The position numbers and the translations under genes are program-made. Shown here piece by piece: positions 6,598 through 32,733 of a stretch of DNA of 64,000 nucleotides. Location of the stretch: the NCBI RefSeq assembly GCF_000384155.1, contig NZ_KB913031.1:2598961-2662960 (forward strand). Direction: 5' to 3'. The notes under the pieces were generated by a model, which saw nothing but the letters and a program-made list of their open reading frames with translations, was not told the DNA's origin and did not search any database. The stretch comes from Methylophilus sp. 42. GTDB taxonomy: Bacteria > Pseudomonadota > Gammaproteobacteria > Burkholderiales > Methylophilaceae. Position 1 is the stretch's first letter. Each line of letters starts with the position of its first letter.

Positions 6598-7824
6598 ATG
6601 CCCGTCAAACTATCTGCCCCTGCTGCCGGAACATTACTGCCTGTCAAAGGCGTACAACTGGGTTTTGCCCAGGCGCATATTCGCAAACCCAACCGCAAAG
6701 ATGTGCTGATCATCACCGTGCCTGAGGGCAGTAGTGTCTCTGGCGTGTTTACGCTTAACCGCTTTTGTGCGGCACCCGTGACGGTCTGCAAACAGCATTT
6801 GCAGCATAACAAAGGCATCCGCGCCCTGCTGGTGAACACCGGCTGCGCAAACGCGGGCACCGGCCAGCAAGGCCTGGATGACGCACGCGCCAGCTGTATC
6901 GGCGTCGCACAGGCACTCAACATCAGCCCAGAACAAGTATTGCCCTTCTCCACCGGCGTGATTCTGGAAACCCTGCCAATGGAAAGACTGCTGGCAGGCA
7001 TCGCCCCGGCTGTCGACAACTTGCAAGAAAACAACTGGTTAAATGCCGCAGAAGCGATTATGACCACCGACATTGTGGCCAAAGGTACTTCACGTCAATT
7101 AGTCATTGACGGCAAAGCAGTCACAATTACCGGCATCAGCAAAGGTTCCGGCATGATCCACCCCAATATGGCCACCATGCTGGGGTATATCGCCACCGAT
7201 GCCGCCATTAGCCAGCCCGCACTCGACAGCATCATCCAGCACGCTGTGAATAAATCATTTAACTGCATCACAGTGGATGGCGACACCAGCACCAACGACA
7301 GCCTGATCCTGATGGCCACCGGCCAGGCAGGCAACGCAGTCATCAGCGAGCAAAGCGCTGATTTTGTAGCCTTGCGTGATGCGCTGACCGAAGTCGCAAC
7401 AGAACTGGCACAAGCCATTGTGCGCGACGGTGAAGGCGCCACCAAGTTTATGACTATCCAGGTTGAAGCGGGTAAAAATGAAGAAGAATGCCGCAAAGTC
7501 GCTTACGCCATCGCCCACTCGCCGCTGATTAAAACCGCCTTTTTCGCCTCAGATCCAAATCTGGGCCGCATCTTGGCCGCAATTGGCTACGCGGGCATTG
7601 ATGACCTGGACGTGAACACCATGCAGCTATATCTGGGTGATGTATTGGTCGCCGAAAAAGGCGGTCGTGCAGCGAGCTATGCTGAAGAACAAGGCGCAGC
7701 CGTGATGAAGGAAAGTGATATTCTGGTACGCGTGGTGTTGAATCGTGGCGATGCAGATGCCACGGTGTGGACCTGCGACTTTTCTTATGATTATGTGAAG
7801 ATTAATGCGGATTACAGATCGTAA
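6598..7824 (+). CDS. argJ: Bifunctional ornithine acetyltransferase / N-acetylglutamate synthase
   Basis: ArgJ transfers the acetyl group from N-acetylornithine to glutamate, closing the acetyl cycle of arginine synthesis. Most such enzymes can also acetylate glutamate from acetyl-CoA. At 408 residues it is full length. The autocleavage site that gives the alpha and beta chains is M191-A192-T193-M194-L195-G, with T193 as the new N-terminal nucleophile. The [11 protein letters not shown] block before it and the GEGATKF block in the beta chain are conserved. AAGGA lies about 10 bases before the ATG. Whether this one is bifunctional or only the transferase cannot be read from sequence. An intrinsic terminator follows the stop. 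Confidence 0.96.
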
Positions 7825-7867
7825 TACGCAGGGATGAACATGTTTTGAGTTCATCAAATGTACGAAG

Positions 7868-7906
7868 AAGCCACCTTAACGCTTAGCCAGTTTTGGTGGC
7901 TTTTTT
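7868..7906 (+). terminator. Rho-independent terminator after argJ
   Basis: An 8-bp stem (AAGCCACC at 7868-7875 with GGTGGCTT at 7895-7902) is followed by a T-run to 7906, 43 bases after the argJ stop. The inverted end of the first dispersed repeat begins two bases after the T-run. Confidence 0.8.
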
Positions 7907-7907
7907 A

Positions 7908-8453
7908 TTTCGCCTTGATGGCGAGTTACTTTTTTTGCTTGCCCCAAAAAAGTAACCAAAAAGAGGGCACCCAGCCATCACGGCCTCCGGCTTCCTTGCG
8001 TTGCTCGACAAAACAAGCGGTAACGAAACTCGCCCTAGCAGCTTGCACACGACGCAAGCTGCCGCGGTGCTCAAACAGTCGCTCCCTCTACTCTTATTTT
8101 GTCTCCGCTACTCAGCGTGATGGGATGGGATTTGTCTCATCTAACTTGCATTGGTTTAGTTCGGACGATTCAAAAACCAGATTCTTTTGTTAAACCTTCT
8201 AAACGATGGCGCTCATTTGGTGTTCGGGGTCCCCATCTGCCGCGCCGAGCAACGCAGGGTTGGCGGGAGTCTTCGGCCATCGGCTGCCCGAGCTCCGCAA
8301 CAAGCCACGTTCTGTGTGGCTTGTCAGGGCGAGCTTCGATGGACGCCCGGCAATCCGAGTAGCGCAAGGAAACAGCGGAAGCTGGGGTGCACTTTCTTTT
8401 GGTTACTTGTTCTTTGTGCAAGCAAAGAAAAGTAACTCGCCGAGAAGGCGAAA
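7908..8453 (+). repeat. Dispersed structured repeat, copy 1 (inverted ends, internal hairpins)
   Basis: This 546-bp intergenic element is repeated at 32002-32623 in the same orientation. Its ends are inverted copies of one sequence, TTTCGCCTT then three variable bases then GGCGAGTTACT. Internal hairpins are at 7925-7956 (11-bp stem, loop TGCTTGCCCC), 8038-8062 (9-bp stem, loop ACACGAC), 8301-8323 (8-bp stem) and 8402-8436. The core from 8076 to about 8375 is almost identical to the other copy, with about five substitutions and one 5-base length change. Open frames exist on both strands, but there is no ribosome binding site or recognisable family, so I do not call genes. No transposase and no target-site duplication were seen. 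Confidence 0.85.
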
Positions 8454-8493
8454 AGCAGCCTTACCAATAAGCGTAGAAAGAATGACCTTATTA

Positions 8494-8895
8494 TCAATCA
8501 TCCCCAACAACCCTACCCCGCCCCTGCTTCACCACCCCACGTTGGATCTTGCCCGCTACCCGCCGTTTTTTAGATGCCAGCGTCGGCCGTGTCGCATAGC
8601 GCACCGCATGCACATGGCTAGCCGCACGTACAACCTCATGCAACCGTGCAATCGCATCCCGTTTATTGGCCTCTTGCGTACGGTATTGCTGGGCTTTGAT
8701 CACCAGCACACCTTCCGCCGTGATGCGTTGGTCTGTGCTATGCAACAACCGTGCTTTAATCACTTCACTCAGGCTAGAGCTGTGAATATCAAAGCGCAGA
8801 TGGATGGCTGAAGAGACTTTATTGACGTTTTGACCACCCGCCCCTTGTGCACGTATGGCGCTGAGTGTGTACTCGTGGGCGGCGATCGTGATCAT
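8494..8895 (-). CDS. arfB: Peptidyl-tRNA hydrolase ArfB (ribosome rescue)
   Basis: ArfB (YaeJ) rescues ribosomes stalled without a stop codon by hydrolysing the peptidyl-tRNA. The catalytic GGQ motif is at G20-G21-Q22 within RAQGAGGQNVNKV, and the last 40 residues are rich in Lys and Arg (RPTLASKKRRVAGKIQRG), matching the tail that reaches into the empty mRNA channel. The length of 133 residues fits ArfB and is far too short for RF1 or RF2. Its ATG overlaps the stop of the DinG-type helicase gene by four bases (ATGA), so translation of the two is probably coupled. The stop lies 40 bases from the end of the dispersed repeat. Confidence 0.93.
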   Translation of the reverse strand: MITIAAHEYTLSAIRAQGAGGQNVNKVSSAIHLRFDIHSSSLSEVIKARLLHSTDQRITAEGVLVIKAQQYRTQEANKRDAIARLHEVVRAASHVHAVRYATRPTLASKKRRVAGKIQRGVVKQGRGRVVGDD

Positions 8896-32001: not shown

Positions 32002-32623
32002 TTTCGCCTTGCTGGCGAGTTATTTTCTGATGCTTGCCCCTCAGAAAGTAACCAAAGAAGAGGGCACCCAGCCATCACGGCCTAAAGGCTCCCTTACGTT
32101 GCTCAACAAAATAAGCCGGTCACGAAACTCAACCTAGCGGGCTGCACACTACGCAGCCCACCGCTGGATTCAGACAGTCGCTCCCTCTACTCTTATTTTG
32201 TCTCCGCTACTCAGCGTGATGGGATGGGATGGGATTTGTCTCATCTAACTTGCATTGGTTTAGTTCGGACGATTCAAAAACCAGATTCTTTTGTTAAACC
32301 TTCTAAACGATGGCGCTCATTAGGTGTTCGGGGTCCCCATCTGCCGCGCCGAGCAACGCAGGGTTGGCGGGAGTCTTCGGCCATCGGCTGTCCGAGCTCC
32401 GCAACAAGCCACGTTCTGTGTGGCTTGTCAGGGCGAGTTTCGATGGACGCCCGGCAAACCGAGTAGCACAGGATAAAAGCGGAAGTTGGGGTGTCTTGTT
32501 CTTTGCCTTCTTTCTTATGGACAAGCATAAGAAAGAATGGTCGCCGAGAGGCGAAATAGATCGATCATAGAGATAGCCTTCGCTTTGGGAAAATAAAGAA
32601 AAGTAACTCGCCAACAAGGCGAA
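32002..32623 (+). repeat. Dispersed structured repeat, copy 2
   Basis: This 622-bp copy lies between nadC and the GspE-type gene, in the same orientation as the copy at 7908-8453. The ends again read TTTCGCCTT, three bases, GGCGAGTTA. The core from 32175 to about 32480 is nearly identical to copy 1. Hairpins at 32019-32052 (12-bp, loop TGCTTGCCCC), 32139-32159 (7-bp, loop ACACTAC) and 32508-32537 (perfect 12-bp, loop GACAAG) match those of copy 1 in place and loop but not in stem sequence. The right part is longer: a variant end at 32508-32555 is followed by a second, standard end. The remaining bases up to 32733 contain nothing I can name. Confidence 0.85.
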
Positions 32624-32733
32624 AAAAGAATACTTTTTCTCTGCATGATCACTTACCCCAAAGTGACCATTCCTGCCACTTTTCCATGGCATGATTTTTG
32701 CACCATAGGCTGGTACTCCTGCCCAAACATGAC

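Follow-up and report, generated by a model that had tools for sequence, protein, structure and literature searches.

What kind of object is the 546-bp repeat at positions 7908–8453 of the window, the 64,000-nucleotide stretch analysed here (2598961–2662960 of the single-contig 2.97 Mb genome of Methylophilus sp. 42)? A preliminary description had noted a second copy (32002–32624, locus L003) and hairpin stems that differ between the copies while each matches its own partner around a fixed loop, and had proposed a structured RNA or a non-autonomous mobile element rather than a gene. Our analysis indicates that the feature is real and unusual and belongs, as a variant, to a kind already known yet unexplained. 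With moderate confidence, we read it as a non-coding, non-autonomous, REPIN-like DNA element made of two inverted structured units and exchanged as a folded single strand at replication forks.

Copy 1 (7908–8453, H1 to H1; plus strand unless stated) was delimited from the sequence and by genome and stem searches. It consists of two inverted units of ~230 bp, P on the left and Q on the right, flanking a variable centre, and the element as a whole is a large imperfect palindrome. Reading inward, each unit comprises H1 (a short hairpin, TTTCGCC..GGCGA), HP2 (a longer hairpin), a CACCC box, a long-range helix, HP3 and a G/C-rich inner end. On the left, H1 (7908–7923), a short GC hairpin (TTTCGCC/GGCGA), runs into a T-rich tract and is terminator-like in the inward direction, and HP2 (7925–7956) is a terminal hairpin with an 11-nt stem (7925–7935/7946–7956), 100 % paired around the 10-nt loop TGCTTGCCCC. 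The P unit core (7968–8129, minus strand; alignment A2) holds the CACCC box, a branched structure, HP3 and the inner end GATGGGATGGG; HP3 (GCAGCTTGC-ACACGAC-GCAAGCTGC, 8038–8062) has a 9-nt stem (8038–8046/8054–8062), likewise 100 % paired. Alignment of the copies places the variable centre, ~100 bp long and without strand, at 8130–8230. The Q unit core (8231–8389; alignment and model R1, described below) contains the long-range helix (5′ half 8257–8267, 3′ half 8346–8356; RNAalifold and allele count), HP3 (ACAAGCCAC-GTTCTGT-GTGGCTTGT, 8300–8324; stem search, covariation and RNAalifold) and ATGGAC (8339–8344), an AYGGAY-type motif seen in the sequence and in alignment A1. The right side is closed by HP2 (GTTACTTGTTCTTTG-TGCAAG-CAAAGAAAAGTAAC, 8402–8436; sequence, HP2 test and fold) and by H1 (8437–8453), which is terminator-like inward on the minus strand. 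The inverted ends of copy 1 (7908–7951/8410–8453) match at 75 % over 44 nt.

Copy 2 has a P unit core at 32065–32228 (minus strand; alignment A2) and a Q unit core at 32335–32493 (plus strand; alignment A1). Its left stem (32019–32030/32041–32052) is 12 nt long and 92 % paired, and its right HP2, of type c (TTCTTTCTTATG-GACAAG-CATAAGAAAGAA, 32508–32537; stem search), has a 12-nt stem (32508–32519/32526–32537) that is 100 % paired; the inverted ends (32002–32026/32600–32624) match at 92 %. The stems and loops of both copies are as first described. The right side of copy 2 ends twice, with an H1 finishing at 32556 and an additional end reaching 32624. Compound right ends of this sort, with the 3′ part of a second HP2 and another H1 after the first H1, occur in the window (32557–32624) and at L002, L007, L011, L014, L015, L016, L017, L019 and L027, and resemble an element that landed on the end of another.

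A nucleotide search of the Methylophilus sp. 42 genome returned 90 aligned pieces, many of which arise because one arm of a copy matches the other; 28 places (L001–L028, both window copies included, a few of them partial) were oriented and analysed. The motif CCATCAYGGC, used for polarity, puts P on the left and Q on the right in 28/28 copies, and an exchange of end types from one arm to the other, considered at first, was dropped on this count. HP3 alleles and helix alleles are common to P and Q units. A candidate terminus motif, AAGAATNACCTTC, behaves like conserved flank at several sites, and elsewhere flank identity reaches H1. Beyond the right end of many copies, at a distance of ~25–90 bp, lies a motif like AAAGAATNACCTTC (8477–8489 in the window; right flanks of, for example, L002, L005, L007, L012, L020 and L023), and its reverse complement sometimes lies outside the left end; it acts as conserved flank at several sites and was seen in none of the aligned empty sites.

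Is the structure itself under selection, as compensating changes between the two copies had suggested? Folded as one DNA strand, copy 1 reaches −133.3 kcal/mol, compared with −86.7 (sd 5.3) in 100 shuffles (z −8.8); single units folded as RNA depart modestly from their shuffles (z −2.9 for Q, −1.9 for P). Covariation was assessed by four tests. At 19 loci outside the genome (19 genomes, 17 genera), selected solely on the pattern CTTTGCTTGYNCAAAG, positions 5–8 of the HP2 lower stem are paired in 59/76 cases, against a mean of 29.0 with shuffled partners (sd 4.2, maximum 45 in 5000). Five of these loci (L062, L070, L071, L074 and L078) are without an in-register stem extension and were still counted, and since the loop was part of the search pattern, its conservation in this comparison is by choice. 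Within the genus, HP3 was anchored through its flanks with no pairing required and was placed in 128/152 arms (127 of them of 27 nt); its 21 distinct stems give 174/189 pairs, compared with 123.2 (sd 7.3, maximum 154 of 10000) after shuffling, and its loop reads ACANNNC or the complement. RNAalifold predicted 41 pairs in 49 aligned Q units, 18 with compensated changes. The long-range helix occurs as three alleles in the genus (X, Y and Z), and its halves match in 70/70 classified units (1/71 unclassified), while the HP3 allele lying between the halves varies: CAAGCCAC accompanies helix X 33 times, Y three times and Z three times. The HP2 loop TGCTTGYNCN is conserved across the genus (absent in 5/152 arms); tested inside the genus only, HP2 says little because there are few distinct stems (left, 68/90 pairs vs 55.5, maximum 72; right, 90/117 vs 75.1, maximum 90). 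As shuffles do not model descent, most weight is placed on the 19-locus HP2 comparison, which spans many genera, and on the long-range helix. Selection for structure is therefore supported across genomes, across copies and in the long-range helix, with shuffles as controls.

A covarying fold raises the question of whether the folded molecule is RNA. The outward strand of each unit could be transcribed as an sRNA or a 3′-UTR element, in the simplest case a CsrA/Rsm sponge, an explanation that we regard as somewhat unlikely. On the outward (AYGGAY) strand of alignment A1, variable cells are G.U in 46 cases and A.C in seven, a count that leans toward G.U since the structure was predicted with G.U allowed; this excess also fits RNA. 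However, the inverted pair leaves each strand with one sense and one antisense unit, and a sigma-70 consensus scan of 7700–8700 found no promoter-like site. Several conserved GGA loops, as a sponge of this type would carry, are not found in the aligned Q and P units, and the AYGGAY motif is not firmly kept, being present in 34/49 aligned Q units and 6/22 aligned P units (the region searched holds one loop).

A protein-coding core, the candidate that the preliminary description had set aside, was rejected, as a long frame is not generally kept across 26 copies. Among their 156 frames (26 copies × 6), the longest stop-free run measures 40–99 codons in 120, at least 100 codons in 25 and at least 160 codons in one. 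These short runs lend weak support to the view that the repeat is not a gene; an open frame of 201 aa (8206–8811) does begin inside copy 1. Certain ‘hypothetical proteins’ may in fact be translated repeats of this type.

Gene context offers another possible role. By a simple ORF call, the genes flanking the 28 copies are convergent in 16 cases, codirectional in 11 and divergent in one, compared with 4/46 convergent gene junctions in the window (3/24 where the gap is at least 50 bp); copies thus lie between convergent genes in excess. The element could then be a bidirectional 3′-end device that terminates transcripts where convergent genes meet, or is bound there by gyrase-type proteins, its use keeping the sites fixed. 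The H1 hairpins with T tracts at both ends of copy 1, terminator-like and reading inward, agree with such a device, as does the persistence of sites across species (below). Yet the terminator scan of 7700–8700 found three sites, of which one falls outside the element, where shuffles gave 1.5 (sd 1.2), the T tract is poor in type-b ends, and codirectional genes flank 11 copies. A terminator, moreover, requires neither a homogenised 550-bp sequence nor an orientation set by replication, and six sites in genome G014 are without the element. Taken together, we judge this explanation distinctly unlikely.

What, then, sets the direction of the element? With dnaA at 173545 in the Methylophilus sp. 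42 genome, 1262059 in G008 and 500 in G005, and the terminus assumed to be antipodal to the origin, the replication fork meets Q before P in 25/28 copies of the first (p 2.7e-5; exceptions L021, L022 and L025). The same orientation is found in 24/25 of the G008 copies with the P motif (exception L016) and at 13/17 of the places in G005 (p 0.049; 8/12 oriented by P motif, 5/5 by match strand); these three counts are not independent, as sites are shared. Transcription does not set the direction, since the 11 codirectional sites divide almost evenly between the two orientations (5 and 6). An orientation that tracks replication rather than transcription is a point against the structured RNA.

We then considered how the copies are distributed among genomes. 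Matches were found in 16/18 genus relatives searched (not in G006 or G018) and in 1/12 genomes from other families of the order (G025, weak). In G008, both flanks are present with at least 442 bp between them for 26/28 of the sites, and the P motif is evident at 24 of these 26 (not at L004 and L022; the copy at L002 is short). In G010, 22/28 sites hold 542–686 bp between the flanks, with L012 partial at 293 bp. Flank identity at conserved sites is about 72–99 %. In the more distant G005, 17/17 places fall at sites occupied in Methylophilus sp. 42 (flank identity about 74–88 %), which marks the sites as old and gives little sign of current transposition. Presence is nonetheless variable: six of the 14 sites tested in G014 look empty (L001, L002, L006, L008, L012 and L026), L020 holds an insert and seven could not be judged. 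The aligned empty sites have flanks too diverged for a base-exact junction, and no target duplication was seen in them.

The content of the sites behaves differently from the sites themselves. Orthologous copies are hardly more similar than other copies (0.828 vs 0.817 between Methylophilus sp. 42 and G010; 0.797 vs 0.787 with G008), and the nearest relative of a copy (n=72) is in the same genome in 47 cases, at a non-orthologous site of another genome in 22 and at the orthologous site in three. Sites are mostly common to species, while copies homogenise within genomes, which would be unexpected for independent RNA regulators. In addition, the element is flipped relative to its flanks in six of 48 copies compared: L002, L025 and L026 in G010 (3/23 with P motif) and L016, L021 and L025 in G008 (3/25), where the L021 site holds ~1.3 kb more than the element. 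As a separate observation, the flanks of the L004 and L005 sites (C1:224722 and C1:291542) are re-joined in G010 (C1:249368–249526 and C1:183092–183099) as by an inversion of ~66 kb; the gaps are only 157 and 6 bp, leaving no full element at either breakpoint.

These data also bear on whether the repeat is a MITE, now decayed, that belonged to a conventional DDE transposon, its copies being similar only through recent copying. Inverted ends and multi-copy intergenic spread are what a MITE would display, but insertion was not recent, given the sites common to G005 at such flank identity, and a MITE needs no internal covariation. No target duplication is visible, in flanks too diverged to exclude one. 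We consider a MITE highly improbable.

Does the element belong to a family that is already catalogued? The pattern CTTTGCTTGYNCAAAG is present in 26/369 genomes of the class, that of Methylophilus sp. 42 included, and the reversed control pattern in none. Named genomes scanned for exact matches yielded 63 stretches, which include Xanthomonas, Dyella, Rudaea, Luteimonas, Methylomonas, Methylocaldum, Mannheimia, Actinobacillus, Glaesserella, Desulfobulbaceae, Thiotrichales and Selenomonadaceae. Facing hairpins ~460–550 bp apart were found at least at L073, L100, L104, L131 and L141, while most remaining loci showed a single such hairpin in this loop-specific search. A phage origin was rejected, as a search of 50,697 phage records returned no match at E 1e-5. 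Short plasmid matches occur in four records (two from Pseudoalteromonas, one each from Aeromonas caviae and Ilyobacter), and the annotation of three of these gave genes around the match for Ilyobacter only. On Ilyobacter polytropus pILYOP01, HP2-region matches lie at six places of this fusobacterial replicon (for example, L242, 224000–224047), and the hairpin therefore reaches beyond the Proteobacteria.

An Rfam scan of the window returned nothing at gathering score, and none of the four weak matches around copy 1 (E up to 5) was to TwoAYGGAY (RF01731). The best RF01731 match in the genome reaches 20.1 bits, below the gathering score of 43 bits, and is not at an element copy. Elsewhere, L079 matches TwoAYGGAY at 59.1 bits, and L068 has two weaker matches in inverted orientation. 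RF01731 was found in 15/185 genomes of the class (10 over the cut-off), one of them with at least 14 matches. Hits form inverted neighbours at L143, L146/L161 and L158, and at L151 two lie in direct orientation; in unrelated genomes, inverted neighbours a few hundred bases apart were noted at G188:C3, G188:C2, G188:C15, G116:C3 and G116:C6. The Rfam entry models a single unit. A hairpin of at least 11 pairs lies on the outer side of 13/23 hits and on the inner side of 1/23 (23 of 30 RF01731 loci, from fewer genomes, seven having been omitted for insufficient flank). About 10 of the 13 resemble HP2 (L149, L165 and L168 do not), and the outer hairpins carry loops other than that of HP2.

A covariance model of the Q unit, R1, was built from the genus of the window and run on 84 of 112 non-genus loci, giving 16 matches at E<0.01 in 13 of the 84. 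L060 scored 50.2 bits; both units were matched in L154 and in L155, and L153, L062, L104, L077, L085, L114, L075, L063, L102 and L169 also had matches at this level. In 6/30 RF01731 loci (E values rough), an R1 match and an RF01731 hit overlap in the same orientation, three of them at E<0.01 (L155, 1.4e-5; L154, 0.0035; L169, 0.0055) and three weakly (L156, L153 and L162, 0.12 to 0.6); the other 24, the highest-scoring included, are unmatched. Two terminal loops reading AYGGAY, the signature of TwoAYGGAY, are not kept in the Q and P units. On the strength of the R1 overlaps, we take the unit to be divergent but related to some TwoAYGGAY units at least; as it falls below the Rfam threshold and keeps the motif poorly, it is called related and not filed as a member.

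This relationship counts in favour of the structured RNA. In the available portions of the sources, TwoAYGGAY is listed as probably RNA and probably not cis-regulatory (Weinberg 2010, PMC2864571), CsrA binding is proposed for it in a 2014 paper (PMC4333381) and it is also named in PMC11701678 and PMC7657543. RF01731 belongs to clan CL00106 together with RsmW and rsmX. Between the two possibilities that had been left side by side at the outset, the orientation by replication and not transcription, the inverted pair and the homogenisation favour DNA, and the relation to TwoAYGGAY keeps RNA in play. The relation can also be read in the opposite direction. TwoAYGGAY and its relatives might be units of a widespread class of paired, replication-oriented DNA elements, copied and exchanged between chromosomal sites as folded single strands, rather than sRNAs, an idea that we advance as possible only. 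Their stems would then be swapped as matched units and their sites kept while the content is rewritten, which we put forward just as tentatively; the 24/30 RF01731 loci missed by R1 lower our confidence in this reading.

For the element itself, we return to exchange of folded DNA at the fork. A fork opening the duplex would allow one strand of the element to fold into its hairpins, which may be recognised by a candidate nuclease, transposase or strand-exchange activity, and the folded stems could be copied or exchanged between sites as units. Such a process would be expected to produce rare spread, frequent rewriting of copies, an occasional flip and a direction tied to the fork. The element may survive at gene 3′ ends simply because it is tolerated there, or because it brings a side benefit, for example by terminating transcription that arrives from either flank. 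In a search for Y1_Tnp, seven of 19 genus genomes had a match (six over the cut-off), that of Methylophilus sp. 42 having one (31 bits, cut-off 23), and the element-rich G008 and G010 had none. A RAYT/Y1 transposase was therefore rejected as the sole driver, and the partner is more plausibly another candidate activity or general recombination.

If this reading holds, TwoAYGGAY, a family catalogued but unexplained, would be extended to a larger unit in which terminal hairpins close an inverted pair. It would also acquire a behaviour in the genome and a connection to replication that can be tested. Sites that persist while their content turns over, and stems that remain matched through recombination of alleles, would be an unusual way for a bacterial repeat to evolve. 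The main value would lie in recasting an orphan family of RNAs as a question, open to experiment, of how DNA folds at the replication fork.

Among known systems, BIMEs are mosaics of palindromic units at 3′ ends; those between convergent genes differ from the present element in size and unit. REP sequences and REPINs with their RAYT (Y1) share with it, in the available portions of the literature, the inverted pair of palindromic units, the extragenic location and the many copies, all of which are found here. The REPIN unit is 20–40 bp long in the accessible part of PMC3733652, in contrast to ~230 bp here, and the usual RAYT/Y1 partner has no match in G008 or G010. What was available of the literature on REPINs, replichore-biased palindromes, concerted evolution of intergenic repeats and Methylotenera MITEs does not describe the element. 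We find it reasonable, at the same moderate level of confidence, to regard it as a large REPIN in which a hairpin closes each ~230-base unit outward. TwoAYGGAY, a candidate RNA of Weinberg 2010, differs in that RF01731 has no hit at the Methylophilus sp. 42 copies and its two-loop AYGGAY signature is not kept in them. It resembles the element in unit architecture, through the six R1 overlaps, and, as here, some of its hits are inverted neighbours and over half of those with sufficient flank (13/23) have a hairpin on the outer side.
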